Shown here: positions 445-41,541 of the stretch, in pieces
How the letters are laid out: each line of letters starts with the position of its first letter
Position numbering within the stretch: the stretch's first letter is position 1
Assembly (NCBI GenBank): GCA_018066245.1
Contig: JAGHRT010000015.1
Location: forward strand, 1-64,000
Length of the DNA stretch: 64,000 nt
Reading direction: 5' to 3'
Origin: Candidatus Equimonas faecalis
GTDB lineage: Bacteria; Bacteroidota; Bacteroidia; Bacteroidales; Bacteroidaceae
The notes under the pieces: model-generated
What the model was told of the DNA's origin: nothing
The model's database searches: none
What the model saw: only the letters and a program-made list of their open reading frames with translations
Made by a program: the position numbers and the translations under genes

Positions 445-651
445 CATCCAAGTTAAAATCTTTTCATAAAGAAGGCAAATCCCAATTCGTGAGAACAAGA
501 AATGCCACAAAGGTTAGTCAGATGGGCTACTGCTGTGAAGCACAGGCCCATCTTAAATGCCACTCCGCGCGTAGGCGCACACAACATAAATAAGGAATAT
601 CAAACAAAACCCATTACAATCAACATTAACCAACCTAACAAAAAAAGCAAA

Positions 652-19158: not shown

Positions 19159-22100
19159 ATGAAAAGATATCTATATAAAATCCATACCCCATCTTCCCCC
19201 CTTGGGGGGATAAGAGGGGGGCTGTTGCTCTTGCTGTTTGTCCTTACGGCAGTAATGGCTCGCGGCCAGGGATTCAATCCCGACAGTCCTGCGGAGCCTT
19301 CGTCGCGCTATCGCCTCAGCGTGGCGGCGCAGCCTCAGGAAGCGGCCACCGTGACGGGCGGCGGACTCTATGCCGTGAACACCAATGTCACGGTGAAGGC
19401 CACAGCCACCGACACGAAGTGGCAGTTCACGGGCTGGACAAACAGCGAAGGAACCGTGGTGAGCACCAGTCTCAATTACAGTTTCCGCACCACCAACAAG
19501 AACGAGACCCTTACGGCCCACTTCGAGGAGGTACGCACCGGTACGCTCACCGTGGCCTACGACCCCGCCAGTCTGAAGGCATCCACCTCCACCGTCTATA
19601 AGGAAGGTACCTCCGTCACTCTCACTGCCGGTGGCTACAACTACTACGTGTTCCAAAACTGGACGGACAAGAACGGCACCGTGGTGAGCACCACAGCCAA
19701 GTTCAACTATGTCACCACCGGTGAGGACCAGACACTCACGGCCCACTACCGTTTCGACCCGTCGGCTCCCGCAGAACCTTCCTCCACGAAGCCCAAGCAC
19801 AAAGTCTATTTCACCGCCGACCCCTCCGGCACCTGCTCGTTCAACCAGACCAACGGCTTCCAGGTGGCAGAAGGCAGCACCTTCTCCGTGAAGGCCACCC
19901 CCTCTACGGGTTATGTGTTCCAGAACTGGACACAGGACGATGTCGTGGTGGGTACCAATGCCACATATAGCGGCACTATGGGTACGGAGGATGTAACCCT
20001 TGTGGCCCACTTCGCTTTCAACCCCGGTGGTCCCGGCGAACCTTCCGCCGATACCCGCGAGCATTATTCGCTCTATCTCCCCACGCTGGAAATGTACCGG
20101 GGGGAAACAGCCTTGCTGCCTGTGTCGCTGGAGAACACTGGCGATGTGAAGACGCTCAGTTTCACAATCCTTCTCCCCGAAGGCGTTACCGCCGATGCCA
20201 GTGCCTTGCAGACCACTCTCCGCACCTCCGCCTACACGCCGACTGCCACCCTTGACGGCCAGACGCTCACCGTCAGCCTCACGGGCGGCACGCAGATAAG
20301 CGACCGCAACGGCGTGGTGGTGCGCATCCCCTTGTTGGTTGATAGCAGTGCGCAGATTGCCGACGGCGAGTATGGCATAAGCCTCACCAACTGTTCAGTG
20401 ACAACAGACAACGGACAACAGACAACAGTTACCGCCCGCAACGGCCGTCTCATAATCAGCACCCTTGAAGAGGGCGACCTCCAGGCCTCCTTCTCCGTGG
20501 ACCGCTATATGAACCGTGCGCAGTTCACCAATACCAGCACGGAGAGCGCCCGCAGTTTCGTGTGGGACTTCGGCGACGGCACCACCAGCACCGAGGTCAG
20601 CCCGATGCACATCTATGCCACTCCCGGCACTTACACCGTACACCTCACTGCCAAGGCTATCGTCAAGAGCAGCGAGGCCGAGCAGACCATCGTGATAAAC
20701 CCCGCCAGCACCTGGATTGCCGACGGCGACTTCACCCTTGATGCCAATGGCACCGGTGCCCGCAACTTCACCTCACTGGAAGAAGCCTTCACGCTACTGG
20801 CACAGTGCCAGACCTTCGGAAATATCGGAATCAGCGTAGTGGGCAGCGAGACATACGCGTGTCAACTGACAACAGACGAAGGACAACCGACGGCAGTCAA
20901 TACACCCCTCTCCGCAATCGTCAATCAGTTGGAAGATAACAACCTGACGCTTCACTACTCCTCCGAAGCCACTGAGGACGGTACTCTCAACTTCGTCAGC
21001 AGAGCAAACGACCTGACGCTTATAGGTCGCCTGTTGGCCCATATCACGACCGACAATGTGGCCGTGAAGGTCAACGGCGTTCTTCTCAACCCCGCCGCCC
21101 TGACAACGCATACGGCGCAGACCGTGTGTGCCGGAGTGGCGACGCAGAAGGAAAGCCTCTCCAATATCTCCGACAGCGACCGCGTGCAAGTGTCGTGGGT
21201 GGTGAGTGTGAGCCCGAACTGCCACCTCTCCGGCTATGCCACCAACGGCAACGGCGACCTGCCCGCAATGACAGTCGGCGGTACGGCCCAACATACGGCT
21301 GTGGAAACACTGTCCTACCACATCACCGTGAGCCTGGACGGCGCCACGCTCTATACATATTTATATAATGTGTCCGTGAAGCCCTTGCTGGCTAACCGCA
21401 CCTTCACCACCAGCGGACCCGCTGACGGCTCCACGGTGCGTGCCGCCAGTAAGACATTGAGTTGGAGCAATATCGCCGACCCCAAGCAGGGCTATACGCT
21501 GTATCTGAAACGCACACTGGAGAATGTGGTGACTACCGACACCTTGGAACTCACCTCCACGAGTTACTCCTTCTTCGCCGCCGCCGGTGCCACCTACTCC
21601 TGGAAGGTGACGGCCTACGGAGAGTGCGACGCCGTGACAAGTGCCGAGAAGACCTTCTCCGTGGAGGAATACGCCGACCTCACCGTGGTGGCCCTCGACG
21701 GAGTGCCCGAAGCCACGACCAGCGGAAGCCCTCTCACTCTCACCGCCACTATCCGCAACATAGGAAAGGCCGTGACGGCTGTGACGAACTGGACGGATGC
21801 CCTCTATTACAGCACCGCTCCCGATGACTTCGCCCACGCGGTGCGCCTCGCCTACACCAACCACAGCGGTGCGCTGGTACCTTATGATGAGGAACAACCG
21901 GCAGTTGGACAATATCAGGTAACTTGGAACATTACCGTGCCGATGACGGATGCCACGAACATTTACTTCTATGTGATGACCGACTCCGGCAACAGCGAGA
22001 CGGAAGCCTCCGAGACCAACAACACCATTGCAAGCGCCGCCGTGGAGATGGTGACGGCATACGTGGATGACGACGATTATGCCGCCCTCTGTCTGCTCTA

Positions 22101-23496
22101 CAACGCACTGAACGGCGAGGTGTGGACGAAGCCGTGGAAAATCAACAATTCCGCCATCACCACGACGGCTTGGCCCGGCGTGACATTCAACACCGAAGGT
22201 CGCGTGACGGCTATCAGCCTGCCGAACAACAACCTCGCCGGCACTCTGCCCACCGAGGGCTTCTCCCTGCCTTACCTCGAAACGCTCAACCTGAGCAGCA
22301 ACGACATAAAGGGCGACCTCGCCGCGTTCTGCGAGGCACTTGTGGGAGGAAGGAACGAAAACGAAGACGAAAACGAAAACGAAAACGAAAACGGAATACT
22401 GAAAACGCTCAACCTTTCCTACTGCAACCTGACGGGACTGACGGGTGTGCTACCCGCCAGCATCACCTCGCTCAACCTTGGTTATCAGCAGAACGTATAT
22501 CCCCTCTCCGCCTTTACCAAGCAGGAGTGGACGATGGGCAGCAGTGAGGCGGAGGTGGCTCTGGGCTCCCTTGTCGCCTACAACCACGCGGCGCAGGACT
22601 TCTCCGCCCATCCTAAGCTCCAGCTCCGCACGGCCGACACGAATACTTACGTGGGCCAGATGGTGTGGAACGGTGAATACTATGCCTTCTCCCTCTCTGG
22701 CGACTACAAGATGGCCAGCGGCACGGAATACCTCGTGCAGCCCACCGAAGGACCTGCGGCTTATTGTAAGTTGCGTGCTACACTGGACTGGATTCCGGGC
22801 GATGCCAATGTGGACGCCAGCGTGGATGTGCTCGATGCCCAGCACACTCTGAACTATATATTGGCCCGACAGAGCGGCAGTTTCAACTTCCTCGCTGCCG
22901 ACACCTATGCGACTGGCACGATAAATGTGCAGGATGTGGTGGCTACGATAAATCTGTTTATTGAAGCCCCCTCCCCGCTCCCCCTTTGGGAGAGAGCTTC
23001 AGAGAGCGATTTGGCTTTCTCCAATCCCGCCACATCCCCCCAAAGGGGGACTTGGGGGGCTGGCTGTCTGTTTAGTCAAGATGGCGGTCTGTGGCTTCGC
23101 ACGACGGAACCTGTGGCTGCGTTGGACTTCACACTTGAAGGCGTGAGCGGTAGTCAGGTGAGCCTGATGCTGAACCGCAAGCGCTATCAGATGACGACAC
23201 ACGACACCGGTACGGGAGTGCGCATCGTCATTATCAGTACGGCCGGTGATGAGATAGTCGCCGGCGACACGCGCCTGCTACGCCTCGGTGCAGAGGCCGA
23301 AGTCACCCGCGTGGTGGCTGCCGACATCGACGCACAGCCCGTGATGATAGCCTGTGGACAACAGACGGAAGGCCTCCCCCCCAGCCCCTCCCTGATAGAA
23401 ATGGGAGACCGTAGCGTGTTTGACCTGACGGGCCGACGCATTAAGACCGGTACAACTGGCGTAAGCATTCAGAATGGAAAGAAAGTGATAAGATAA
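19159..23496 (+). CDS. Secreted multidomain protein: InlB-type repeats, cohesin-like module, PKD, CARDB, LRR, dockerin-like module, C-terminal sorting-type tail
   Basis: FTGWT/FQNWT...LTAHF repeats; EMYRGETALLPVSLENTGDVKTLSFTILLPEG; FVWDFGDGTTST; GDANVDASVDVLDAQHTLNYIL...GTINVQDVVATINLFI; tail FDLTGRRIKTGTTGVSIQNGKKVIR. Confidence 0.8.
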   Translation: MKRYLYKIHTPSSPLGGIRGGLLLLLFVLTAVMARGQGFNPDSPAEPSSRYRLSVAAQPQEAATVTGGGLYAVNTNVTVKATATDTKWQFTGWTNSEGTVVSTSLNYSFRTTNKNETLTAHFEEVRTGTLTVAYDPASLKASTSTVYKEGTSVTLTAGGYNYYVFQNWTDKNGTVVSTTAKFNYVTTGEDQTLTAHYRFDPSAPAEPSSTKPKHKVYFTADPSGTCSFNQTNGFQVAEGSTFSVKATPSTGYVFQNWTQDDVVVGTNATYSGTMGTEDVTLVAHFAFNPGGPGEPSADTREHYSLYLPTLEMYRGETALLPVSLENTGDVKTLSFTILLPEGVTADASALQTTLRTSAYTPTATLDGQTLTVSLTGGTQISDRNGVVVRIPLLVDSSAQIADGEYGISLTNCSVTTDNGQQTTVTARNGRLIISTLEEGDLQASFSVDRYMNRAQFTNTSTESARSFVWDFGDGTTSTEVSPMHIYATPGTYTVHLTAKAIVKSSEAEQTIVINPASTWIADGDFTLDANGTGARNFTSLEEAFTLLAQCQTFGNIGISVVGSETYACQLTTDEGQPTAVNTPLSAIVNQLEDNNLTLHYSSEATEDGTLNFVSRANDLTLIGRLLAHITTDNVAVKVNGVLLNPAALTTHTAQTVCAGVATQKESLSNISDSDRVQVSWVVSVSPNCHLSGYATNGNGDLPAMTVGGTAQHTAVETLSYHITVSLDGATLYTYLYNVSVKPLLANRTFTTSGPADGSTVRAASKTLSWSNIADPKQGYTLYLKRTLENVVTTDTLELTSTSYSFFAAAGATYSWKVTAYGECDAVTSAEKTFSVEEYADLTVVALDGVPEATTSGSPLTLTATIRNIGKAVTAVTNWTDALYYSTAPDDFAHAVRLAYTNHSGALVPYDEEQPAVGQYQVTWNITVPMTDATNIYFYVMTDSGNSETEASETNNTIASAAVEMVTAYVDDDDYAALCLLYNALNGEVWTKPWKINNSAITTTAWPGVTFNTEGRVTAISLPNNNLAGTLPTEGFSLPYLETLNLSSNDIKGDLAAFCEALVGGRNENEDENENENENGILKTLNLSYCNLTGLTGVLPASITSLNLGYQQNVYPLSAFTKQEWTMGSSEAEVALGSLVAYNHAAQDFSAHPKLQLRTADTNTYVGQMVWNGEYYAFSLSGDYKMASGTEYLVQPTEGPAAYCKLRATLDWIPGDANVDASVDVLDAQHTLNYILARQSGSFNFLAADTYATGTINVQDVVATINLFIEAPSPLPLWERASESDLAFSNPATSPQRGTWGAGCLFSQDGGLWLRTTEPVAALDFTLEGVSGSQVSLMLNRKRYQMTTHDTGTGVRIVIISTAGDEIVAGDTRLLRLGAEAEVTRVVAADIDAQPVMIACGQQTEGLPPSPSLIEMGDRSVFDLTGRRIKTGTTGVSIQNGKKVIR
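22357..22392 (+). repeat. In-frame hexanucleotide array (GAAAAC x6, one variant unit)
   Basis: gaaaac gaagac gaaaac gaaaac gaaaac gaaaac encoding (EN/ED)n. Confidence 0.9.
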
Positions 23497-23552: not shown

Positions 23553-26500
23553 ATGAAAATACAACGATATATAATATGTTTGGCCCTGAGCCTTGTGGGG
23601 CTTATGGCGGGTGCACAGAACACGCTGTCGGTGCCCGACCTCGTCGGTGGCAGCGGCAAGGAAGTGAGCGTGCCCGTCAATATGACGAACACCGACGAGA
23701 TTGTGGCGGTGCAGTTTAACTTGCATCTGCCCTTCTCGCTGGCTTCGGGCAAGAGTCCCGTGCTCAACAGCAGCCGAAACACGGCAGGCCATACCATCGC
23801 CGTGCGCTCTCTCGGTGGCAATGTCTATACCATTGTTATCGTCAATATGAGCAACAAGCCCCTGGCAGGTAGCGACGGCACCCTGCTCACCTTCCCTATG
23901 AAAGTGGCCTCAAACCTTGAAGGCGGTGCACAATATGAGATGACCGTCAGCGATGTGGTGCTCACCAACCGCCACGGCGACAATATTCAGACGGGCGCCA
24001 CGGGCGGCACCTTCACCGTGCAGCGCGAGGACAGCCCCGACCTCGAAGTGAGCGACGTGCATATAGTCCCCACCGCAGGCACCGACTTCGTGCCGGGAGA
24101 GACGGTTGATGTCAGTTGGCGCGTCAGCAACATCGGCAATGCCGACACCCGCAGTGGCTGGACGGAGAAAGTGTATCTCGTCAGCACCCTGACGGAGGAG
24201 AGCGTCTATGTGGGCAACGCCTACTTCAACTATGTGCTCCTCAAAGGCGGCTATACGGCCCGCAATGTGGCCTTCACCTTGCCCGAAGCAGCAGGAATGG
24301 AGGGCGAAGTGGTCGTGAAGGTTGTCGTGGAGCCCAACAGCGGTACGGGTGAATACCTTGCCGACCGCGGTAATAACACCGCCACGGGCGATGTCCTCAC
24401 GCTGGCCTCGCGCCTCTTCCTGAAAGCCCCGGCTGAAAAGGTAGCCGAAGGCGGTGCGCTGCGTTTCACCCTCTTGCGCAGTGGAGACCGCAGTCTTGAA
24501 GAGACGTTCAGTCTTTCATCCTCGCTGCCCCAGCGTGTCACGCTGCCCGCCACCGTGACGATACCTGCCGGACAGGCCTCTGCCAGTTTCAATGTGCAGG
24601 TACCGCAGAACGCACTTGTCAATGACTACACCACGGCCACCGTCAGCGTGGCTCCGACGGGAGAATACACGCAGGGCGTCAGCGCCTCGTTCATCATCGA
24701 GGACGACGAACTCCTGCCCCTCACACTCTCCCTCGACAAGACGGAATACAACGAGGGCGACACGATGCACCTCACCGTCAGCGTGCCCTACCGTATCGGC
24801 GACCAAGAACTCACCGTGTTCTTCGGCATAGAGCAGGCCAAGCGCTTCTCTCTGCCCAAGTCCGTCACGTTCGCTCCCGGCGCCACCTCCGCTGAAGTGG
24901 AAATCCCCATCAAGCAGGACAACACGCCTGCCAATGTGGCCACCATCCAACTAAACGCCTCGGCGGAGCACCATCTGTCGGCTTCTGCGCTCTTCGTCCT
25001 CAACGACGATGATGTGCCCGCCATCGACCTTGCCCTCACGCCCACCGTCATCAGTGAGGCCGCCGGCGGCAACGCCATCTATGGCACCATCACCCGTCAG
25101 GAGGCCACCAACAGCAAGATTACGGTGAAACTCTCCGACGACTCCGGCGGCGCTCTCTACTACACCTCCACCCTGACTATGCCCGAAGGCACCACCAGCA
25201 TCTCCTTCCCCATCGGCGTGAAGGACAACCAGCGTGTGGACGGCACCCGCCCAGTGAAACTCACTGCTGCCGTCTATATCACCGACTGTGGCTGCTCCGC
25301 CATCGGCGACAAGCAGACTTCCGTGGTGCGTGAGATAGAAATTACCGACAACGACGGCCCCACGCTTTCCATCACGGCCAACAAGACCACCGTGCTCGAA
25401 GGCAACGCCGAGGGCACCGTGCTGACTATCAGCCGTAACGATGGCACCGACTCTGCCTTGCCCGTCACTCTCGCTTGCAATGCCAGCGATGTGAATATGC
25501 CTTCCTCCGTCACCATCCCGGCTGGCCAGGAAAGCGTCACTGCTGTGTTCAAGGCCCTGAGCAACGCCACGCAAGAGGGCAACCGCACCGTGAGCATCAA
25601 GGCCGTAGCCGACGGCTATGCCTCCGGGTCAATGTGGCTTCTCATCTCCGACCAAACTCTGCCCGACGCCGTACTCGACAAGGTGGAGGCTCCCGCTTCC
25701 GTGGAGGCCGGACAGCGTCTCAATGTCCGTGTGACGCTCTCCAATATCGGTGCCGTGGCACTCCCCAAGAATACCGACGTGAAGCTCTCCTTCGGCAACC
25801 AGAAGACCCTCGTCACGCTCAACGAACCGCTGGAAGCGGGTGCTACGCGCGAAATGCCTTTTGAACTGGAAGCCCCCATCGTGCCGGGTTCCTACACCCT
25901 CACGGCAAAGGTGAACCCGTCGGGCACCATCACCGAACTCCAGCTCCTCAACAATGAGGCTGCGCAGACCATCAGCGTGACATCATCCTACGACTTCACC
26001 GTGCAACCCGATGCAGCCCGCTACAAAGCCGGCGACACCGTTCATCTCTCCGGTACGGTACAGACGAAGGGTGGACAACCCGCCGCCGGCATCGCCGTGG
26101 AGCCCTATGTTATCTATGCCGGGTCGCGCACTCCGCTGACGGCAACCTCCGACGACGAGGGACACTACACCGCCGACTTCGTTATTCCCGAAGGAATGGC
26201 GGGTACTTTCACATACGGCGTCTGCAACCCTGACGAGAAACTCTTCACGGAGAAGGGCACCTTCAAGGTGTATGGCTTCACCCGCGCTACCTATGACTAC
26301 CTCACGCATAAGGTGTTCGTAGGTGAGCCCTACGCTGGCACTGTCAGCCTGAAAAACCTCTCCGACCTGCCCCTTCACAACATTCGCGCCACCTACGACG
26401 CCACGGAGGGATACACCCTCGTGGTGAATGAGATACCTCTCCTTGAAGGTAACGCCACTGTAGAACTTCCCTACGCCATCCTGGCATCACAGACCTCGAA

Positions 26501-29500
26501 GACCCCCGACTGGGACCGTATCAAGATACACCTCTCCTGCGACGAGGGCGCTACGCTCGACCTCATTACTTATAATTACGCGCAGACGCATACGCCGACT
26601 CTCGTGGTGGGCACTAACAGCATCAACACTTCCGTGACGAAAGGCAAGACGCGCCTCGTGCCGCTCACCCTCACCAATACGGGTCTGGGCGAGACGGGCA
26701 AAATTTCCGTGCTGCTCCCCTCCGGTATGGGACGCTTCGTCACTCTTGCCACGCCCGCCGAGATGCCCAGTCTCGCCACGGGCGACAGTGCCACCGTTAT
26801 GCTCCGCTTCGACGGCACGGGCTACGATGTGAACCTCATCCAGAAGGGCAGCATCGCCATCAACTGTGAGAAAGGCAACGGCAAGGCTGTCTATTTCAAT
26901 GTGAAGGTGGTCAGCGAGGACAAGGGTAATCTCCTCGTGCGTGTGGCCGACGAAGCCACGCAGTATGGCGACAAGGACGGCAACCGCCCCTATGTCAGCG
27001 GTGCGACGGTGAAACTCACCGACTACAACACCGGTGCCGTAGTGGCCACCGACGTGACGGGTGCCGACGGCAGCCTGCTTCTTGAAAATATCGCCGAGGG
27101 CTACTACCACCTCAATGTGTCGGCACCCAAACACGACACCTACGACCAGAACGTCCTCATCTCGCCGGGCGAGACGACGGACCTCACGGCCTACATTTCG
27201 TATCAGGCCATCAGCGTGAAGTGGGATGTGGTGGAGACGGAAATTGACGACGAATATGAGATTGTCACCTCCCTCACCTATGAGACGCAGGTGCCTGTGC
27301 CGGTGGTGGAAATCACGGCGCCGGACACCCTTCTATTAGAAAACATAGAGCGGGGCAAGAGTACGCTGATGAACGCCGTGCTGCGCAATCGCGGCCTTAT
27401 CACGGCGGAGGATGTGAAGTTTACCGTGCCGGAGGCCAAGGGCTTCGTGTTCCGTCCCCTCGTGCCGGTCAGTGGATTTGAACTGGCTCCCGAACAGAGT
27501 TATGTTATCCCCATACTGGTTTATCACGAAGAAGACGACTTCTTCAACGATGCCGAGGCGCGCCGTCAGGTGAAGCGCAAGGCGGACAAGCCTAACTGTA
27601 ACGGTAAGTTTGGCGGCGAGTATAAGTGGCCCTGCGGCCCCGACAGTAAGTTTGCCTGGCTGGAGAAACCCATCCAGTGGGCCACCGACATTAAGTGTGC
27701 CAAGGGCGGTGAAAAAGCCAAGACGGGCCCCGGCCACAACACTCCGCTGGGCGACCCCAATTCGGCGGGCGGACTGGGCCTCCTCCACATCGGCCCCGGT
27801 GGCGACGCCGTGTTTGCCGCTATGGTGGAGTTCCTCTGCCGTATGTGCGACTGCTTCTGCGTTGACCCCGTCTCCGACCTTAAGGACGGCCACAAGACGC
27901 TCAACGGCTGCGGCGGTTCCAGCGGTCCGAGAGGAGCCTTCAATGTTGCAAACTATGTTGTGACCGGCGACCGCTCTTCGCTGCAACCTTTCAAGGACTG
28001 CGCCGCCGGTGCCGCCAAGTTCGCGGCCGGAAAACTCCCCGTGCACCTCGACTGCCTCATCAATCCCTTCATCGACGAAATGAGCAAGGCGCCCCGCCGC
28101 AAGGCGCAAAGCAAAATGCCCGACCTGCTGGAGAGCGCCGGAGAAAAAGAGGTGCTGTACCTCTACCATTGGGCTTTGTTCTACGACTATCTGAAAGAAA
28201 TGACCGATGCCCCCGTGGCCTGCGACACGCTGGCCAATATCGATGAGTTCGTCATGGCCCTCGAGGACGTGGAGCGCATCGTTGAGCCTATGTGGGAGGA
28301 CGGCTCTCTCCACGATTTCGACTTGACCTCCATCCCCAATGCGGTACAAGGAAACTACACCACCTCCGACGGTATTGGCCTCTATCTCGCCTCCCTTATG
28401 CCGCAGGGACAGACTATACTTTACGACTTCGACCTGCGCCGCTATGTGGAGCGCCTCCGTAACACCTGGGACCTGCAAGCCGGTCGTGAAGTAACCTCCG
28501 ACAACCACATCGACTTCCGCGTGATAGAGAAACTGGCCGCCCGTCAGGACTCTTGCGTGGCCAAAATGGTGGCCTACGGCTATCCTACGATGAACGATGT
28601 GCTCAACGGGGCGCAGAAGGACTGGCTGGAATACCACGAGAACGCCTCGAAAAACACCTGTGCCACCGTGAAACTGGAAATCAAGCAGAAACTTGTCCTC
28701 ACCCGTCAGGCTTTCCGTGGCACCCTTACCGTGGACAACGGCTCCGGCACGAAACTCACCGACATAGACCTCAGCGTGGATGCCATCAACCAGGCAACCC
28801 TCGCCGTGGCCACCGCCCACGAGATGCAAATCAATGTGGAGAGCATCGAAGGCTTCGCGGGCGACAAGGACGGCAAGTGGTCGCTGGAACCCGGACAGAC
28901 GGGCGTGGCCACCATACTCTTCATCCCCACGAAATATGCCGCCCCCGACACGCTGACGACATACAGTTTCGGCGGCACGCTGGCCTTCAACGACGGCACC
29001 ACCGTGCAGAGCCGCGCCCTCTATCCCGTCAGCCTGCAAGTGAAACCCTCGCCCGAACTGGACCTCACCTACTTCATGCAGCGCGATATCTATGGCGACA
29101 ACCCGCTGACAGAGGATGTTATCGAACCTGTCGTTCCCGCCGAGTTCTCCGTGCTCATCCACAACAAGGGCCGCGGCGACGCTACCAATGTGCGTATGCT
29201 CACGCAGCAGCCCGAAATCGTGGACAACGAGAAGGGCCTGATGGCTGACTTCGCCATCGTAAGTTCCTCTCTCAACGGCGGCGAGAAGGCTATGGCCCTC
29301 GACAGCGAGATTGCCACGCAGTTCGGCGACATACCCGCCGGCACCTGCTCCTACGCCACCTGGGACCTCACCTGCTCGCTCCTCGGCCACTTCACCGACT
29401 ACGATGTCTCCTACACCCATCTGACATCCTACGGTAATCCCGACCTCTCGCTCCTCGACAAAGTCACCATCCACGAACTCATCCACAGCGTCAATGCCCG

Positions 29501-31475
29501 CGTAGGCGACCAGACCTACCGTGCCTGGGTTACCAACGACTTCGCCGACGGTCACGATGAGCCCGACCATATCTATCTCGCCAACGGCACCGACGAGGAC
29601 CTCGTCACCCTCACCAATGTCACGGAGGTGGAGCCGCTGGGTAACTATCAGTACCGCATCAGCGTCACGGTGCCCCAGAAGGAGTGGTTCTACACCAACG
29701 TCAGCAACCCCGGCGGAGGATACTCCAAGATTCTCTACCTTAAAAACGAGGACACCGGCGAGGAACTCGACCCTGCCAACTTCTGGACCACCGACTACAC
29801 GATGCAGGACGGCTTCGACCCGCTGAAAGACTACCGTCTGCACCTCGCCGACCTCTCTTCGGGCCCCGGCACACGCCACTATATCGTGGAGTTTGAGCCT
29901 ATGCCCGAAGTACGCCTCAATGTCGTCAGCATAGAGACCGTGCCCGACGACGAAGACATCGCCGAGGCACCTATCGACGAACTCACCGTGACCTTCAACA
30001 AGGACATCGACCACACCACCTTCACCCGCGCCGACATCGTCCTGCGCTATGAAGGCGAGATTAAGGACATCGAACTGCCCATCACGCGCCTCAATGGCAC
30101 CAGCCAGCGTGTGTTCAAGATTGACACCAGCAGCCTCACCACCAACGGCTACTATGCCCTTCAGGTGAAGACCGACAGCATCACCGACCTCGAAGGCTTC
30201 CTCGGAGCCGAGGGCAGGCAGGTGCGCTGGATGCTTTTCAAGGACGGCCTCGTACACTACAATATCGATGTCTATCCCAGCACCGACTACGGGCACATAC
30301 AGACTTCCACCAACTTTACCGGTGGCGACCTGTCCTACGGTTCGCAGATTTCCTTCCACGCCGTCCCCACGACCGGCCACCGCTTCGTACAGTATAACTC
30401 CTGCACCTGCTACGCCGGCAACTCGGCTTGGCGCGTTCGCCGCCGCGACAAGGCCGCAGAATCTGACGACGAGATCGTCGTTCTCGGTACTGACCCCGAC
30501 ATCACTCTCGAAATGAACCAGGTACGCTACCTCCGCGCCGTATTCGAGCCCATCCCTTACAGCGTCACCGTCAGCTGTCCCGCCGAGCAAGGCACCCTCG
30601 CCACGCCCAGCGGCATTTACGACTACGGCACCGTGCTCACCCTCGATGCCCGTCCCGCTTCGGCTGACTACGAACTGCTGGGCTACAACGTCAACGGCAC
30701 CTTCGTGCCCGCCACCGAGCCTTACGCCCTCACCGTGGAAGGCAATACAACGGTGGAGCCCGTCTTCAAGAATCTGGCCCCCGTCAATGTCCTGCTCAAC
30801 GAGAGCGTGAACTGGACCGGCGAGGCCGTGGAACGAGCCAACGTGAACTTCTATCGTTCCTTCCGCAAAGGCACGTGGAACTCCGTCTGCCTCCCCTGCG
30901 CCGTGTCCGATATTGATGCCGCCTTCGGCTCCGGCACGCAGGTGGTGCGCCTCACCGGTATCGTAGGCACCGTGGCACAGTTCTCCCCCGTTACCGAGAT
31001 GGAGGCCAACGTGCCCTACCTCATCAAGCCCGGCGCCCTGAATGCCGCCTACTATGCCGACGGAGGACTCTTCACGCAGCTCTATGACCTTGGCCTCACC
31101 GCTACCGAAGAACCTGTCAGCGAAGAACCCACCGACACCCACGGCGACATATCCTACATAGGCACCTACACCGTGCATCCCATCGACAAGGACGCCGGCA
31201 ACTACTACATCAGTTCCGACCTCTTCTACTATGTCGATGCTGCCGCCAGCGTCAATACCGGTCGCTATCGCGGCTACTTCCACGTGGATGACGCCTCCGC
31301 CTCGCGCCTCTTCCTCGGCATCGGCACCGAGGGCATCGTGCGGCCGCGCCAGTGGGCCAACACCTCCGGCGTCTTCCGTCTCGACGGCGTACTCGTCCGT
31401 CCTGCCGGCACCTCGCTCGAAGGCCTTGAGTCCGGCCTCTACATCATCGACGGCCACAAAGTGCAAGTGCGATAA
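23553..31475 (+). CDS. Giant surface protein (2640 aa): cohesin-like N-terminus, CARDB and Calx-beta modules, Cys-rich central insert
   Basis: Signal peptide; PDLVGGSGKEVSVPVNMTNTDEIVAVQFNLHLP; repeated EDDELLPLTLS / NDDDVPAIDLAL / DNDGPTLSITANK Calx-beta junctions; tail SGLYIIDGHKVQVR. Confidence 0.8.
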   Translation: MKIQRYIICLALSLVGLMAGAQNTLSVPDLVGGSGKEVSVPVNMTNTDEIVAVQFNLHLPFSLASGKSPVLNSSRNTAGHTIAVRSLGGNVYTIVIVNMSNKPLAGSDGTLLTFPMKVASNLEGGAQYEMTVSDVVLTNRHGDNIQTGATGGTFTVQREDSPDLEVSDVHIVPTAGTDFVPGETVDVSWRVSNIGNADTRSGWTEKVYLVSTLTEESVYVGNAYFNYVLLKGGYTARNVAFTLPEAAGMEGEVVVKVVVEPNSGTGEYLADRGNNTATGDVLTLASRLFLKAPAEKVAEGGALRFTLLRSGDRSLEETFSLSSSLPQRVTLPATVTIPAGQASASFNVQVPQNALVNDYTTATVSVAPTGEYTQGVSASFIIEDDELLPLTLSLDKTEYNEGDTMHLTVSVPYRIGDQELTVFFGIEQAKRFSLPKSVTFAPGATSAEVEIPIKQDNTPANVATIQLNASAEHHLSASALFVLNDDDVPAIDLALTPTVISEAAGGNAIYGTITRQEATNSKITVKLSDDSGGALYYTSTLTMPEGTTSISFPIGVKDNQRVDGTRPVKLTAAVYITDCGCSAIGDKQTSVVREIEITDNDGPTLSITANKTTVLEGNAEGTVLTISRNDGTDSALPVTLACNASDVNMPSSVTIPAGQESVTAVFKALSNATQEGNRTVSIKAVADGYASGSMWLLISDQTLPDAVLDKVEAPASVEAGQRLNVRVTLSNIGAVALPKNTDVKLSFGNQKTLVTLNEPLEAGATREMPFELEAPIVPGSYTLTAKVNPSGTITELQLLNNEAAQTISVTSSYDFTVQPDAARYKAGDTVHLSGTVQTKGGQPAAGIAVEPYVIYAGSRTPLTATSDDEGHYTADFVIPEGMAGTFTYGVCNPDEKLFTEKGTFKVYGFTRATYDYLTHKVFVGEPYAGTVSLKNLSDLPLHNIRATYDATEGYTLVVNEIPLLEGNATVELPYAILASQTSKTPDWDRIKIHLSCDEGATLDLITYNYAQTHTPTLVVGTNSINTSVTKGKTRLVPLTLTNTGLGETGKISVLLPSGMGRFVTLATPAEMPSLATGDSATVMLRFDGTGYDVNLIQKGSIAINCEKGNGKAVYFNVKVVSEDKGNLLVRVADEATQYGDKDGNRPYVSGATVKLTDYNTGAVVATDVTGADGSLLLENIAEGYYHLNVSAPKHDTYDQNVLISPGETTDLTAYISYQAISVKWDVVETEIDDEYEIVTSLTYETQVPVPVVEITAPDTLLLENIERGKSTLMNAVLRNRGLITAEDVKFTVPEAKGFVFRPLVPVSGFELAPEQSYVIPILVYHEEDDFFNDAEARRQVKRKADKPNCNGKFGGEYKWPCGPDSKFAWLEKPIQWATDIKCAKGGEKAKTGPGHNTPLGDPNSAGGLGLLHIGPGGDAVFAAMVEFLCRMCDCFCVDPVSDLKDGHKTLNGCGGSSGPRGAFNVANYVVTGDRSSLQPFKDCAAGAAKFAAGKLPVHLDCLINPFIDEMSKAPRRKAQSKMPDLLESAGEKEVLYLYHWALFYDYLKEMTDAPVACDTLANIDEFVMALEDVERIVEPMWEDGSLHDFDLTSIPNAVQGNYTTSDGIGLYLASLMPQGQTILYDFDLRRYVERLRNTWDLQAGREVTSDNHIDFRVIEKLAARQDSCVAKMVAYGYPTMNDVLNGAQKDWLEYHENASKNTCATVKLEIKQKLVLTRQAFRGTLTVDNGSGTKLTDIDLSVDAINQATLAVATAHEMQINVESIEGFAGDKDGKWSLEPGQTGVATILFIPTKYAAPDTLTTYSFGGTLAFNDGTTVQSRALYPVSLQVKPSPELDLTYFMQRDIYGDNPLTEDVIEPVVPAEFSVLIHNKGRGDATNVRMLTQQPEIVDNEKGLMADFAIVSSSLNGGEKAMALDSEIATQFGDIPAGTCSYATWDLTCSLLGHFTDYDVSYTHLTSYGNPDLSLLDKVTIHELIHSVNARVGDQTYRAWVTNDFADGHDEPDHIYLANGTDEDLVTLTNVTEVEPLGNYQYRISVTVPQKEWFYTNVSNPGGGYSKILYLKNEDTGEELDPANFWTTDYTMQDGFDPLKDYRLHLADLSSGPGTRHYIVEFEPMPEVRLNVVSIETVPDDEDIAEAPIDELTVTFNKDIDHTTFTRADIVLRYEGEIKDIELPITRLNGTSQRVFKIDTSSLTTNGYYALQVKTDSITDLEGFLGAEGRQVRWMLFKDGLVHYNIDVYPSTDYGHIQTSTNFTGGDLSYGSQISFHAVPTTGHRFVQYNSCTCYAGNSAWRVRRRDKAAESDDEIVVLGTDPDITLEMNQVRYLRAVFEPIPYSVTVSCPAEQGTLATPSGIYDYGTVLTLDARPASADYELLGYNVNGTFVPATEPYALTVEGNTTVEPVFKNLAPVNVLLNESVNWTGEAVERANVNFYRSFRKGTWNSVCLPCAVSDIDAAFGSGTQVVRLTGIVGTVAQFSPVTEMEANVPYLIKPGALNAAYYADGGLFTQLYDLGLTATEEPVSEEPTDTHGDISYIGTYTVHPIDKDAGNYYISSDLFYYVDAAASVNTGRYRGYFHVDDASASRLFLGIGTEGIVRPRQWANTSGVFRLDGVLVRPAGTSLEGLESGLYIIDGHKVQVR

Positions 31476-31538: not shown

Positions 31539-31712
31539 GCTCGGCATGAGTATAATGCGAAGGGGGAGAGGCCGCTCTTTGAGCGGTGCTTTGCCATAAA
31601 CGACTACAAACCTAAAGACTTACAGCCCAATGCAAGCGGTATTAGGCTTTGCCACTATTTGTCATTTTCTGCTACACCCTCTACCCCCCTCTACCCCCCT
31701 GTGAGTCATCGT

Positions 31713-31800
31713 GCCACCTTGGTGGCATAAGCCTGTCACCTTGGCGACACGAGCCTGCCACCCTGGTAACACAAGTCTGCCACCAAGGTGGCACGACAAC
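31713..31800. repeat. Four 22-bp tandem units, each with a palindromic or near-palindromic 14-bp core
   Basis: GCCACCTTGGTGGC.ATAAGCCT / GTCACCTTGGCGAC.ACGAGCCT / GCCACCCTGGTAAC.ACAAGTCT / GCCACCAAGGTGGC.ACGACAAC. Confidence 0.9.
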
Positions 31801-31883
31801 GCATTGGGGATTACCAAGACTTCAGCGCCTCGAAAACAAGGCGTTTATCCCGAACCGAAGTGCTTTTTGACGACCGCCGCAAC

Positions 31884-32558: not shown

Positions 32559-33416
32559 TTAGTTCAGGAAATTCTTGATGATTGTTTCAGTATTATCTAA
32601 GTTGGCATCTGTTTCAGAGATGACCACATTCTTAACTCCCATGGCTTGGAACCAATCCGTCATTACCTGCACCATCTTGTCACGATGCTGGGGTTGATAA
32701 GGATTAACTTCCAGCACCAGCACTTCAAGATTGTCAAGAGGCACATCTGTACGCCGTGCGATTAAAGAGGATTGTGGATTCTGTAATGTTTCCGGCAATA
32801 TATAAGAATAGGCATTACCTTCTTTTATTTTGTTATTGGCCTGGAATATATACCCGTCGCTCAAAATAATTAAGATATTGCGAGCATCTTTCTTCACACA
32901 TTGAGCATCAACCTTCTTGCTTGAGAAAAAATCCCAGATGTCGCAGCCTATCCAATTTTTTGCATTTACCGTTTGGTCATATATGTGAGCAAGATTCTCT
33001 TGAAATTGAGATTTCAACCCTTCAACGGCCTTTCGCCTTTCAACACCTTTCAGCGCACCGACATCAACACTCAAACCTTTTGCCACAGTAGCAATAGAAG
33101 CACATGACGGGGTGGGATAAAAGAACACCTTTATCTTATTTTCACTCTTTAGTATCTGGGGGCCAAGAGTCGCAGTCTTGAAATAGTCGCAGACCATTCC
33201 CACGATTGCAGTATCACGATAGGTTTGATTGGGTTGCATATTGCGAACAAGCCTATCCGACAAGTCCAAGAATATAGAGATATTCAATGACGGATTTTCC
33301 GATTTCTCTTCATCTTTGACAGAGCCGTTCTTAGTATCTCCGCCACAGGACAAAAGGCTCCATGCTGCGACAAAAAGGACACCAATTCCTAAAACACTTA
33401 ATATAGTTTTTTTCAT
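32559..33416 (-). CDS. Lipoprotein with VWA-like domain
   Basis: Lipobox WSLLSC; SIFLDLSDRLV (MIDAS-like) and ILIILSDGYI. Confidence 0.7.
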   Translation of the reverse strand: MKKTILSVLGIGVLFVAAWSLLSCGGDTKNGSVKDEEKSENPSLNISIFLDLSDRLVRNMQPNQTYRDTAIVGMVCDYFKTATLGPQILKSENKIKVFFYPTPSCASIATVAKGLSVDVGALKGVERRKAVEGLKSQFQENLAHIYDQTVNAKNWIGCDIWDFFSSKKVDAQCVKKDARNILIILSDGYIFQANNKIKEGNAYSYILPETLQNPQSSLIARRTDVPLDNLEVLVLEVNPYQPQHRDKMVQVMTDWFQAMGVKNVVISETDANLDNTETIIKNFLN

Positions 33417-33421
33417 AGTCG

Positions 33422-34642
33422 TTATTTTATTAAATTCTGAATTTCTGCATCAAATATACTCTTTGCTAAAGTTTGATCTTGCTCAGACATTGATAGGACT
33501 GTCATCATCTTTACCCATCCTGCAAAGAAGTTATTCATTTCCGCACGAATCGCTGCATAATCAATAAAGGTCTCATGCCCGAGTTTTGACATCAGTTGAG
33601 AAACTTTATTCTTCAAACCTGCTATTGCTCCTTCCAACTTTTGTTTTTCCTCGCGCAATGCTTTCTTGTTTTCTTCTATACTCAGGATGTCTCTATCAAT
33701 TGCTTCCAAACGTGTCTTGCTCAAATCCAATTTATCATAAGCACTCATACACAAGTCAAAAACGATGCCCCAAATGATATAAACGATGAAACCACAGAAA
33801 ATCACGGCCCAGGTATTAGGATCACTAATGGCCATTGCCACAGAATACTCCTCGCCAACAGGTCTCGTGCCTATAATCACTTCCATTGAGTGAAGTTGCT
33901 TGCCAATAAGATAAGCCAAAATGCAGTCAAACATCACTGTTACAAAAAGAATTCCTCCCATTTTAACAAATTTGGCATAGCCTTTCTGCACAGAGAAGAA
34001 ATGCAAGCAGAAACCCAACCCTAAAAAGATAATTGGAGCGCTCATCACAAAGCATAATTCTGTGATACCGTCGTTGTAAGCATTTGACAACGCATTCGAG
34101 TCAAACATTGAGTTCATCACAGAGGTTATATTCTCCGGATTTCTAAAAAATGCGGAGTAAAATGTGGAACTATAGAACAAGAACAGGTAGAATGTCAGCG
34201 GAATAATAATGACAAGACCAATAATTAACTTTAGTTTCTCGTTTTTATTTACAAGGCTCTTGTTGTTCTCTATTTTATCTTTTTCCGCCTTTAGCTCTTG
34301 AATCTTTCCCTTCGCTTCTTCTATTTCAGACTCTTTGTCACGCACTTTCCCTTCAAGATTCTTGATATTGTCATTCGTCTGCTCTATCTCTGTCTCTGTG
34401 TTTTTACGAGCAGCCTCCTGGAGTTCAACGTTCTGGGCCTGCTCGTTATACATGGCATTATACACTTTGTGCAAATACGGAGGAAGTGCATGTAAACTTC
34501 CCTGCACGATGCCGCACATACGAACACCCCATTTCTCATAGGTTTCACCCTCACGCCTTGCTTCAGGGTTGTCAAGAATGACAGGCTGTGCTGCCACAAC
34601 CTCTGGCTCTTTGGATTTAAATAAATTCTTCAACTCAAACAT
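33422..34642 (-). CDS. Membrane protein with N- and C-terminal coiled coils and central TM segments
   Basis: Coiled coil NTETEIEQTNDNIKNLEGKVRDKESEIEEAKGKIQELKAEKDKIE, then several hydrophobic segments, then a second coiled coil. Confidence 0.75.
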   Translation of the reverse strand: MFELKNLFKSKEPEVVAAQPVILDNPEARREGETYEKWGVRMCGIVQGSLHALPPYLHKVYNAMYNEQAQNVELQEAARKNTETEIEQTNDNIKNLEGKVRDKESEIEEAKGKIQELKAEKDKIENNKSLVNKNEKLKLIIGLVIIIPLTFYLFLFYSSTFYSAFFRNPENITSVMNSMFDSNALSNAYNDGITELCFVMSAPIIFLGLGFCLHFFSVQKGYAKFVKMGGILFVTVMFDCILAYLIGKQLHSMEVIIGTRPVGEEYSVAMAISDPNTWAVIFCGFIVYIIWGIVFDLCMSAYDKLDLSKTRLEAIDRDILSIEENKKALREEKQKLEGAIAGLKNKVSQLMSKLGHETFIDYAAIRAEMNNFFAGWVKMMTVLSMSEQDQTLAKSIFDAEIQNLIK

Positions 34643-34654
34643 AGCTTTTATACA

Positions 34655-35050
34655 TTAAGCGTTAACAATTGCTGCGATTGTATCTTTTTCACTCACATTC
34701 CCCTTTACTTGCTGAAGCATAAAATCTGCTATGCCTTCCGCATTTTCCTCTAAGAAACCAAGGCGCACGGCATACTTTATCAGCAGCGAACGCTCTGCCG
34801 GCTCAATTTCTCCGTCGGCCCAAGCTATCTCTGCCATTTCATACAAAATACTCACTCTGTCCTCCAATTTTGTTGGGGCTACGAATGATGTCCCCGAAGA
34901 CACCACAGCGGCATTAATCTCCTCAGAAGCGAGACCGTAGTTTTCCCTACCGATACGATAGAGCACCTCCAACTCTTTCGCATCTACTACACCATCAGCC
35001 ATTACCATACAATAGAGGCTGAGGAATCTGGATTTCAGTAATTCTTCCAT
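34655..35050 (-). CDS. TerB-like protein
   Basis: LYCMVMADGVVDAKELEVLYRIG ... AEIAWADGEIEPAERSLLIKYAVRLG, the paired acidic motifs of TerB-like domains. Confidence 0.75.
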   Translation of the reverse strand: MEELLKSRFLSLYCMVMADGVVDAKELEVLYRIGRENYGLASEEINAAVVSSGTSFVAPTKLEDRVSILYEMAEIAWADGEIEPAERSLLIKYAVRLGFLEENAEGIADFMLQQVKGNVSEKDTIAAIVNA

Positions 35051-35764: not shown

Positions 35765-35995
35765 TTGGATGGCCACAGCGACGGCAAAAGCGGTTTTGAG
35801 GAAACTGCGAATAAGCTTATCCTTACCGACACCCAGCGCCATCGCTTCACCGTCGGCCTCACCTTGCATCTCCGCAACCGCTATTTCCCTACCGACATCC
35901 GCCTGAACTACGAGAAGTACCTGTATCCTCATGGCAAAGCGCCCAAGGAGAGCGAGCAGGACAAAATAGCGGCAGAACTGATGATACGGTTCTAA
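35765..35995 (+). pseudogene. 3' fragment of an outer-membrane porin (phosphate-selective porin-like)
   Basis: HRFTVGLTLHLRNRYFPTDIRLNYEKYLYPHGKAPKESEQDKIAAELMIRF looks like a C-terminal beta-barrel strand set; no signal peptide or barrel body upstream. Confidence 0.6.
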
Positions 35996-39508: not shown

Positions 39509-39703
39509 CCCGGCAGCAGGTCTTCTCCCCGTCAGCGGAAGCCGCCGCCTCCGCCCTTGCTCCCGCAGGGTAAGGAATCCGCCCTTAAAGGCTGCGAGCG
39601 CCGTCCTATAGGCTGCGGAAAACTACTGTATATACTAGAAAAAACTAGTGTACAAACCAAGAAAAACCATCGGCGGACAGCGAAAAGCCGCCCCATAAGC
39701 CCT

Positions 39704-40531
39704 ATGCAAGCCAAGTATATCTCACGCATCGTCATCGACAGCCTGTGGCAAGGCCACAAGCACATAGACTGGGTTCTCCGCCCGGGAGTGAACGTGCTCA
39801 GCGGCAAGAACGGCGCGGGAAAGAGCACCATTCTGAACCGCATCGTCAGCCACCTCGCCGAAGTGCTGCCCCTCGAAGGAGCCCTCGCCAAGAGCACGGC
39901 GCCCGGCGGCGTAACGCTGGAATTCATGCCTGCCGAGGCCGACACCATCCGCTACGACATCGTGCGCTCCTTCGACCGCCAGCTCATCCGACTGGACAAC
40001 ATACTCAACTCCACGGAGGTGAAAATCCGCACAGAACTGGACTGGCAGCTCTACCAGCTGCAACGCCGCTACCTGGACTACCAGGTGAACGTGGGCAACC
40101 GCATGATTCAACTCCTCACCTCCGGCGACCCCACCGCCCAGCAGCAGGCCACGGCGGCGGCGGGGCAGAAGCGCCTGTTCCAGGACATGGTCGATGAACT
40201 CTTCCGCGACACGGCCAAGACCATAGACCGCAGTTGCAACGAGCTGCGCTTCCTCCAATATGGCGAGCCCCTCCTGCCTTATCTCCTCTCCAGCGGCGAG
40301 AAGCAGTTGCTCATCATCCTGCTCACCGCCCTCACCGAGGACGCACAGCCCTGCGTGCTCTTCATGGACGAACCCGAAGCCAGCCTCCACTTCGAGTGGC
40401 AGAAGGTGCTCCTGTCCATGGTTACGCGCCTCAACCCCAACGCCCAAATCATACTCACCACCCACTCGCCCGCCGTCATCATGGACGGCTGGGCCGACTG
40501 CGTAACGGAGGTGGAAGAAATAGAGCGATGA
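39704..40531 (+). CDS. AAA/ABC-type ATPase (OLD/AriA-like, 275 aa)
   Basis: Walker A GKNGAGKST, signature LLSSGEKQLL, Walker B CVLFMDEPEASLHF, H-loop TTHSP. Confidence 0.85.
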   Translation: MQAKYISRIVIDSLWQGHKHIDWVLRPGVNVLSGKNGAGKSTILNRIVSHLAEVLPLEGALAKSTAPGGVTLEFMPAEADTIRYDIVRSFDRQLIRLDNILNSTEVKIRTELDWQLYQLQRRYLDYQVNVGNRMIQLLTSGDPTAQQQATAAAGQKRLFQDMVDELFRDTAKTIDRSCNELRFLQYGEPLLPYLLSSGEKQLLIILLTALTEDAQPCVLFMDEPEASLHFEWQKVLLSMVTRLNPNAQIILTTHSPAVIMDGWADCVTEVEEIER

Positions 40532-41541
40532 GCCTGCAAAAGTACCTTTCGAGCGACTACATCAAGGCGGCCAACACCCTCAAGGGCGGGCGGCGTTGCA
40601 TTGTGGCCTATGTGGAAAGCTACGACGACGTAGCCTTCTGGAGCCAGGTGCTGCGCCAGTGGGAAACCCCCGACCGCTACTTCGAGGTGATGCTCCCCTC
40701 GCGCTCATCGCTGGCCAAAGGCAAAAAAATAGCCCTCAGCCACGAACTCGGCCCCGAACTCATCGCCTGCGTCGATGCCGACTACGACTGGCTCATGCAG
40801 GGCAGCACGCCCACCTCCAAGTTCCTGTGCGAAAGCCCCTACGTCCTCCACACCCACGCCTACGCCATCGAAAACCTGCAATGCTTCGCCCGAGGACTGC
40901 ACGAGGTGTGCGTCAAAGCCACGCTCAACGACCGCCACGTGTTCCCCTTCGCCCAATTCCTGACCGAATACTCCGAAACCGTGTGGCCCCTCTTCGTGTG
41001 GAGCGTCTGGGCCTACCGCTACGACAGGTACAAGCGCTTCTCACTCTCCGACTTCGCACGCATAGCCACCTCCCTGAAAATCGACGTGCAAGCCCCCCAA
41101 AAAGCCCTCGACGAACTCCGCAAACAAGTAAACAAGGCCGTAGCCCAACTCCAACACCGCTTCCCCGAAGGCCGCAAGACCTACGCCCCCCTGCGGCAGC
41201 AGATGCTCGACATGGGCATTACGCCGCAGGACACCTATTTATATATGCGAGGCCACGACCTCATGGACAATGTCATCCTGCCCCTCGTGGAGGACGTCTG
41301 CAACAGGCTCCGCCGGCAGCGGGAGCGCGAAATCAGCGCCCTGGCCTGCCACAGCCAGCAGAAACAGAACGAACTCTCGGCCTATCGCCGCGCCTGCGCC
41401 TCGCCGCAGGAAATGATACGCAAGTATTCGGGCTACACCGAAGCCCCCCCCTACCTCCTCATCTGCGCACAGGCCGCCCAACTCTTCGCAACCGACGAAA
41501 CCGACGGCGCAGCCCTGCCAAAAACAGAAGAAACCCGTTAA
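40528..41541 (+). CDS. DUF4435/TOPRIM-like protein
   Basis: IVAYVESYDDVAFW and LIACVDADYDWL acidic motifs; start overlaps the ATPase stop (ATGA). Confidence 0.75.
   Translation: MSLQKYLSSDYIKAANTLKGGRRCIVAYVESYDDVAFWSQVLRQWETPDRYFEVMLPSRSSLAKGKKIALSHELGPELIACVDADYDWLMQGSTPTSKFLCESPYVLHTHAYAIENLQCFARGLHEVCVKATLNDRHVFPFAQFLTEYSETVWPLFVWSVWAYRYDRYKRFSLSDFARIATSLKIDVQAPQKALDELRKQVNKAVAQLQHRFPEGRKTYAPLRQQMLDMGITPQDTYLYMRGHDLMDNVILPLVEDVCNRLRRQREREISALACHSQQKQNELSAYRRACASPQEMIRKYSGYTEAPPYLLICAQAAQLFATDETDGAALPKTEETR

Follow-up and report, generated by a model that had tools for sequence, protein, structure and literature searches.

What does a cassette of three close-packed genes, encoding a TerB-domain protein, a coiled-coil membrane protein (CC), and a lipoprotein of predicted VWA fold, contribute to the bacterium that carries it? 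We addressed this question for a locus in Candidatus Equimonas faecalis, starting from a 64,000-nucleotide stretch of DNA that is referred to as the window. An initial annotation had proposed a small envelope-spanning sensing or defence module, possibly of horizontal origin. The analysis points to a three-gene membrane module that most likely functions in immunity or in envelope stress closely related to it, an assignment to which we give about an even chance of being correct.

Locus and predicted structures of the three proteins

Inspection of the open reading frames confirmed the first description of three close-packed minus-strand genes that are AT-richer than their flanks (Table 1). The intergenic gaps are 12 nt between TerB and CC and 5 nt between CC and VWA. 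The GC content of the trio is 0.41, compared with 0.594 and 0.590 in the flanks, and GC3 is 0.42–0.46 in the trio genes versus 0.77–0.86 in the adjoining genes. Promoter and terminator scans returned counts no higher than in shuffled sequence. The integration site of the cassette was not found by either of the approaches used: comparison with congeners gave no clean empty site, the adjoining outer-membrane gene being conserved and followed by different genes in each, and a scan for direct repeats flanking the trio yielded short chance matches only.

Table 1. Positions in the window of the cassette genes and of the protein features discussed in the text.
Feature	Position	Strand	Length or residues	Basis or conservation
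TerB-domain protein gene (first gene)	34655..35050	-	131 aa	PF05099 match
CC protein gene	33422..34642	-	406 aa	TM prediction, AF2 model, loop charge
CC N-terminal coiled coil	34265..34429	-	aa 72-126	single long helix in model
CC four-TM core	33737..34240	-	aa 135-302	hydropathy and 44-sequence alignment
CC C-terminal coiled coil	33578..33724	-	aa 307-355	single long helix in model
VWA-fold lipoprotein gene (third gene)	32559..33416	-	285 aa	AF2 and Foldseek
VWA N-terminal membrane anchor/lipobox (...SLLSC)	33345..33416	-	aa 1-24	hydrophobic segment aa 3-26, Cys24
DLSDR, altered first MIDAS motif	33252..33266	-	aa 51-55	D51, S53, R55 in 48/48 homologues
GCDIW, inferred MIDAS Thr loop	32934..32948	-	aa 157-161	D159 in 48/48
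DGY, third MIDAS motif	32850..32858	-	aa 187-189	D187, G188 in 48/48

Just upstream of TerB, a short plus-strand ORF (35765-35995) looks like the C-terminus of a porin-type outer-membrane protein and is possibly a gene remnant, and between the trio and a large surface-protein gene there is an imperfect 54-nt inverted repeat with CCACC/GGTGG-type units (31696-31809). At 502-9303, 19159-23496, and 23553-31475, the window encodes secreted proteins of very large size (1445-2933 aa) that contain repeat-like domains, two of these genes being adjacent. Positions 39650-41541 (plus strand) hold a gene for an AAA ATPase with the Walker A motif GKNGAGKST, followed by a gene whose product, a putative DUF4435/TOPRIM protein, is reminiscent of the corresponding partner in PARIS-type (AriA/AriB) systems. 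A link between this pair and the trio is unlikely, because DNA similar to the start of the pair adjoins the outer-membrane gene in some congeners.

The TerB-like domain recognized at the outset was verified by a match to PF05099 (E 1.2e-8; 35.7 bits against a Pfam cut-off of 24.4). The protein is cytosolic, having neither a TM segment nor a signal peptide. Alignment of 44 homologues revealed acidic motifs in both halves, D19...E26 and W77-A-D79...E86, in which Asp-19, Glu-26, Trp-77, and Glu-86 are invariant (44/44) and Asp-79 is retained in 43 of the 44. Searching solved structures by sequence gave weak TerB-family matches only, and PADLOC-DB 2.0.0 gave a weak partial match to PDC-S48 (E 2e-4). 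The same genome (L001) encodes a second, stronger TerB match at C15:147290-147628, in an open frame of 295 aa.

For CC, TM segments are predicted at residues 135-162, 192-218, 224-250, and 275-302, and the AF2 model has a mean pLDDT of 87.8 and a pTM of 0.55. The 44-sequence alignment disclosed three conserved motifs in the core, FYSSxxYSAFF, FDxxLAYxI, and GFxxYxxWG. Loop 2-3 carries a mean of 3.2 Lys/Arg per 10 residues, and loops 1-2 and 3-4 are acidic. Since the number of TM segments is even and loop 2-3 is positive, both coiled coils would lie on one side, the cytosolic one, and the predicted topology by positive-inside loop charge is N-in/C-in in the inner membrane. The coils had been described as lying on either side of the TM segments, which holds along the sequence but, judged by loop charge, not across the membrane. 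A fold search of the CC model against the PDB gave no match at E 0.001. Assignment of CC to a known PADLOC defence family was rejected, as the matches cover coiled-coil regions only and are artefacts. One orthologue (L030:726-1975) is split into two overlapping ORFs, by a frameshift or a sequencing error.

The AF2 model of the gene-3 protein, built with 47 homologues, reached a pLDDT of 90.1 and a pTM of 0.84. Foldseek matched it to the VWA domains of BatB, Rpn10, complement factor B, and integrin I in the PDB with a probability of 1.00, an E-value of about 1e-4, and a TM-score by target length of about 0.5-0.63. The model thus predicts a VWA (Rossmann-like) fold, in agreement with the VWA-like lipoprotein first suggested; with the Pfam match of TerB, both fold assignments made at the outset passed this test. 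Neither the protein nor any of the 47 homologues matches Pfam or NCBIfam, and PADLOC-DB 2.0.0 returned no match of weight. Several orthologues (L038, L054, and L058) lack the lipobox Cys and have an uncleaved N-terminal TM anchor; in these proteins, at any rate, the anchor puts the VWA domain on the outer side of the inner membrane.

The DLSDR motif that had been read as MIDAS-like is present and invariant, but it does not belong to a canonical MIDAS. The Ser that forms the third ligand of DxSxS is replaced by Arg in 48/48 homologues, and the residue matched to the MIDAS Thr, inferred from order along the sequence, is Ser, Cys, or Ala (residue 158: Ser in 32, Cys in 11, Ala in 5 of the 48). 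A complete DxSxS...T...D arrangement was found in none of the 48 homologues. Because of these alterations at the third ligand and at the inferred Thr, classical metal-dependent binding by the VWA protein appears doubtful on the sequence evidence.

Co-conservation, distribution, and neighbours

When 85,462 species genomes were scanned for the gene-3 family, 52 loci were returned, nearly all from Bacteroidota. All three genes occur together in the single order TerB > CC > VWA in 44 of the 52 loci, and the trio thereby passed the co-conservation test suggested for it. The remaining eight comprise four loci cut by contig ends (L037, L048, L051, L057), two with CC-VWA and no detected TerB (L039, L045), and two with VWA only (L060, L063). 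A few records are titled Bacillota, Spirochaetota, Acidobacteriota, or Pseudomonadota and may represent binning errors or transfers. The pairwise distance matrices of the three families correlate with one another (r 0.88, 0.80, and 0.90), as expected for joint inheritance of TerB, CC, and VWA. Among individual loci, L040 (2689-4577) carries a tandem pair of VWA genes after CC and a shortened TerB ORF, and the VWA homologue at L060:9914-10747 has no accompanying CC and is positioned downstream of potassium-uptake (Trk-type) genes.

Within the window's family, CC was detected in 8 and VWA in 9 of 301 sampled genomes, and the cassette is present in none of the roughly 20 congeners listed in that sample. 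CC occurs in 20 of 395 genomes across the phylum, so that prevalence is about 3-5% of the genomes sampled. The trio is AT-richer than its flanks in all 26 Bacteroidales-type loci measured; flavobacterial loci match the base composition of their AT-rich hosts. Patchiness and AT-richness fit a horizontally moving cassette, and the GC contrast and uneven distribution are what the earlier suggestion of horizontal acquisition would lead one to expect. The window's VWA protein had no match in phages, plasmids, or viral contigs, and a profile of the distant relatives had none in viral contigs or phages and a single plasmid relative, from Runella; a reading of the cassette as phage or plasmid cargo was rejected on these grounds.

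Enrichment near defence genes had been proposed as a further check. We compared, by PADLOC, 101 proteins near TerB loci with 101 far proteins on the same contigs. Families matched numbered 67 near and 9 far, with at least 24 of the near ones arising from one or two proteins and no family matching more than two members, and this comparison gave no clear enrichment of PADLOC defence families. The trio proteins themselves match no anti-phage system model in PADLOC-DB 2.0.0. The suggestion of a defence role thus gains nothing from the surroundings of TerB loci, but it is favoured by TerB-less CC-VWA relatives in type III CRISPR and BREX loci. Other neighbours recur, here as raw counts without a genome-wide background rate: HSDR_N proteins in at least 10 flavobacterial loci, secreted EEP nucleases in about 9 loci, and members of the Endonuclease_NS family in 4 Bacteroidales loci, with DUF6804 and a transglutaminase-like protein also recurring beside TerB loci. 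Genes for a TPR/HATPase sensor and a response regulator often precede the trio in Pedobacter and Flavobacterium.

These regulatory neighbours bear on the alternative that survives best, in which the trio is an envelope or metal stress module with no antiviral function: the periplasmic VWA domain would sense damage or a ligand and, via CC, control TerB in a Ter-like protective response. Membership of the TerB family, an anchored VWA domain that faces the periplasm, the frequent sensor and response-regulator genes, and the lack of cas10 and of PADLOC enrichment near TerB trios all agree with such a role. However, a patchy distribution with persistent AT-richness would be unusual for a core stress system, the altered MIDAS speaks against metal sensing by VWA, and the occurrence of the pair inside CRISPR/BREX loci and its fusion to a PLD domain would be left unexplained. 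We therefore consider this explanation rather unlikely.

TerB-less relatives and a proposed mechanism

Divergent CC-VWA pairs without TerB were retrieved by a phylum search with a CC profile, and a subsequent search added two. Placed in the VWA tree, these pairs lie on long branches, separate from the Bacteroidales and from the flavobacterial group, with the root and the order of events uncertain. In genome G437, the pair lies by genes for Card1, a CARF/NE0113 protein, RT-Cas1, Cas2, Cas6, and Cas10/Csm3/Csm4/Csm5 (type III-A), together with CRISPR repeats. The pair in G311 adjoins Csx20 and BREX BrxL, on a contig that also has BrxB, PglX, and an 18-repeat CRISPR array. In G309, a Csx20 gene is positioned immediately upstream of CC, in TerB's usual place; it is the only match of its model in that genome, and cas10 is on another contig. 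Csx20 has been shown experimentally to be a cA4 ring nuclease (PMC12409355). CC of G590 carries a PLDc_2 domain (E 2.1e-24) as an N-terminal fusion, with a diverged VWA gene downstream. The pairs in G516, G713, G720, and G552 have no CRISPR, BREX, Csx20, or PLD neighbour in the stretches read; in G720, phosphate-transport genes flank the pair on one side and respiratory-complex genes on the other, and no defence gene is close by.

Further genes were observed beside pairs of this kind. A protein combining TIR (just below the Pfam cut-off) and FGE-sulfatase domains converges on the TerB-less pair of L039 (10782-12284), with a PIN-like toxin gene upstream. Similar three-gene sets (about 150, 340-370, and 370-450 aa) adjoin two pairs, at L115:435-2996 and L132:3-2870, one protein of the L115 set having a sigma-factor-like HTH. 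A lipoprotein with a weak OmpA-family match is encoded directly after CC-VWA at L118:11267-12202.

Direct evidence that CC and VWA function as one unit comes from a natural fusion on plasmid pSP2_2 of Runella sp. SP2, where both are contained in one 704-aa protein within a type III-B locus. Residues 11-416 correspond to CC (E 3.5e-54) and residues 471-703 to VWA (E 5.3e-36). Because an extra TM segment (442-467) separates the two halves, the VWA half would be outside, a placement that agrees with the signal peptide of the stand-alone VWA protein, and the fusion supports the topology proposed for the separate CC and VWA proteins. The fusion gene comes directly after Csx1 and Csx20, with a WYL gene on the other strand in between, and is flanked by Csx20/WYL on one side and CRISPR primase-polymerase/cas2/cas1 genes on the other. 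It has no PADLOC match.

The gene cas10 is present in three of the seven genomes with TerB-less pairs versus none of the 22 trio genomes, the window's genome (89.8% complete) included; the Fisher p of about 0.01 is uncorrected for relatedness, and in G034, which is counted among the 22, TerB was not detected. Because cas10 is absent from the 22 trio genomes, the window's module is CRISPR-independent and not run by type III CRISPR signalling; membership of a type III locus was found for the relatives in G437 and on Runella pSP2_2, and not for the window's trio.

A second alternative would make the CRISPR and BREX neighbours chance residents of mobile clusters, and the cassette an unrelated mobile gene set with another function. 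About half of the nine TerB-less loci have no cyclic-oligoadenylate gene nearby, type III CRISPR-rich lineages are over-represented among the TerB-less genomes, and the Runella case was drawn from a separate collection. Chance would nevertheless have to account for Csx20, CARF, or cas genes within a few genes of the pair in four separate lineages, as well as for a fusion gene set between Csx20/WYL and the CRISPR primase-polymerase/cas2/cas1 genes in Runella, and we regard it as improbable. Improbable to a still greater degree is an accessory role in DNA processing or uptake, in which the trio would act with adjoining nucleases as proposed for Ter modules: members of three unrelated nuclease families are repeatedly encoded next to the trio and PLDc_2 is fused to CC in G590, but no nuclease gene adjoins the window's trio or the trio of many Bacteroidales loci, and these nucleases are common in Bacteroidota and were counted without a genome-wide background.

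Returning to an immunity-related membrane module, the CC-VWA pair looks like the core and the cytosolic partner like the part that changes. The cytosolic side of CC has a TerB neighbour, a PLD fusion, or a Csx20 neighbour, which suggests an exchangeable cytosolic module on CC. CC, with four TM segments and both ends cytosolic, and the membrane-tethered VWA facing the periplasm would form one membrane-spanning unit, to which TerB could be added as a cytosolic regulatory subunit. The pair may thus serve as a re-used chassis, occurring with TerB, with an N-terminal PLD-like nuclease fusion, or with neither in type III CRISPR loci. A cytosolic signal (TerB-linked in the window and probably cyclic-oligoadenylate-linked in CRISPR loci), an envelope signal received via VWA, or both would switch the membrane unit, which might then perturb the membrane or relay the signal. 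Acting inside-out, a cytosolic signal would set off an effector in the membrane, in the manner of Cam1 or Csx23; acting outside-in, VWA would detect envelope damage and TerB or PLD would be the output. The CRISPR locations favour the former and the PLD fusion the latter. We infer a physical complex of the window's TerB, CC, and VWA proteins and, for the module, an antiviral role, a direction of signalling, and a perturbation of the membrane. Compared with the envelope-spanning arrangement first envisaged, TerB, the VWA fold, the membrane protein between them, and their co-conservation were retained, but the MIDAS proved non-canonical and both coils are placed on the cytosolic side.

The conserved trio order, the agreeing distances, the Runella fusion, the contexts in G437, G311, G309, and G590, the patchiness, and the AT-richness count for immunity. 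Against it count the lack of PADLOC enrichment, the lack of cas10 in trio genomes, the context in G720, TPR/HATPase and response-regulator neighbours that fit stress regulation equally well, and the lack of a recognised CARF in CC or VWA; in the window's CC and VWA, searches of Pfam, NCBIfam, and PADLOC found no CARF, SAVED, or other known nucleotide-binding domain. A more far-reaching proposal, which we put forward tentatively and hold to be somewhat short of an even chance, is that CC-VWA constitutes a new antiviral membrane-machine family with an exchangeable cytosolic module, acting in type III CRISPR loci as a CARF-less effector of the cyclic-nucleotide pathway, in other genomes in PLD-fused form, and in most Bacteroidota as TerB-run, stand-alone, CRISPR-independent immunity. 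If so, TerB, which is widespread and of unclear function, would gain a concrete partner and location and its role would become testable; a membrane machine would join CRISPR-dependent and CRISPR-independent immunity via a common core; and a function would be available for two families without a Pfam name, the VWA-fold lipoproteins and the 4-TM coiled-coil proteins that are unmatched among solved folds.

Comparison with known systems

TerB and VWA are established domains. Neither the gene-3 family nor the CC family, nor the combination of the two, has a name in Pfam, NCBIfam, or PADLOC. No account of the trio or the CC-VWA pair turned up in a literature search that lay mostly outside subscription journals. 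The gene-3 protein shares its VWA fold with BatB, Rpn10, and the integrin I domain, but differs from them in its insertions, an identity of about 10%, and the replacement of DxSxS by DLSDR.

With Ter/TerY-P systems, the trio has in common a TerB domain, a VWA-fold partner, and membrane association. It differs in that its VWA is extracytoplasmic with an altered MIDAS and CC is a different membrane-protein family; a TerY-type VWA with intact MIDAS was not seen in the trio. In about 70 loci, whose neighbours were partly run against Pfam, the ORFs close to the trio included no obvious TerC, TerD, PP2C, or kinase. Of the link to Ter-type stress systems drawn in the initial annotation, the TerB domain stands and nothing else, so that TerB is the sole tie to tellurite-type Ter. 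CoCoNuT systems, with their TerY-P VWA, resemble the trio and its relatives in having VWA, coiled coils, some PLD nucleases, and a predicted antiviral role, according to the accessible part of their description (PMC11090510). They are McrBC-type GTPase systems, whereas we noticed no GTPase gene adjoining the trio, and a membrane VWA lipoprotein is not among the features described in that part of the source.

Parallels in context are the membrane effectors of type III CRISPR systems, which include Cam1, Csx23, Cam2, Cam3, and CorA-like proteins in the accessible parts of PMC11229360, PMC10808066, and PMC11014256; CC-VWA is not among the membrane-effector families named in the accessible part of PMC11229360. 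Like these effectors, the distant CC-VWA relatives present a TM protein beside CARF and ring-nuclease genes. Unlike them, CC has no recognised CARF, SAVED, or REC domain and combines four TM segments and coiled coils with a periplasmic VWA partner, and the form present in the window includes TerB and is independent of CRISPR.
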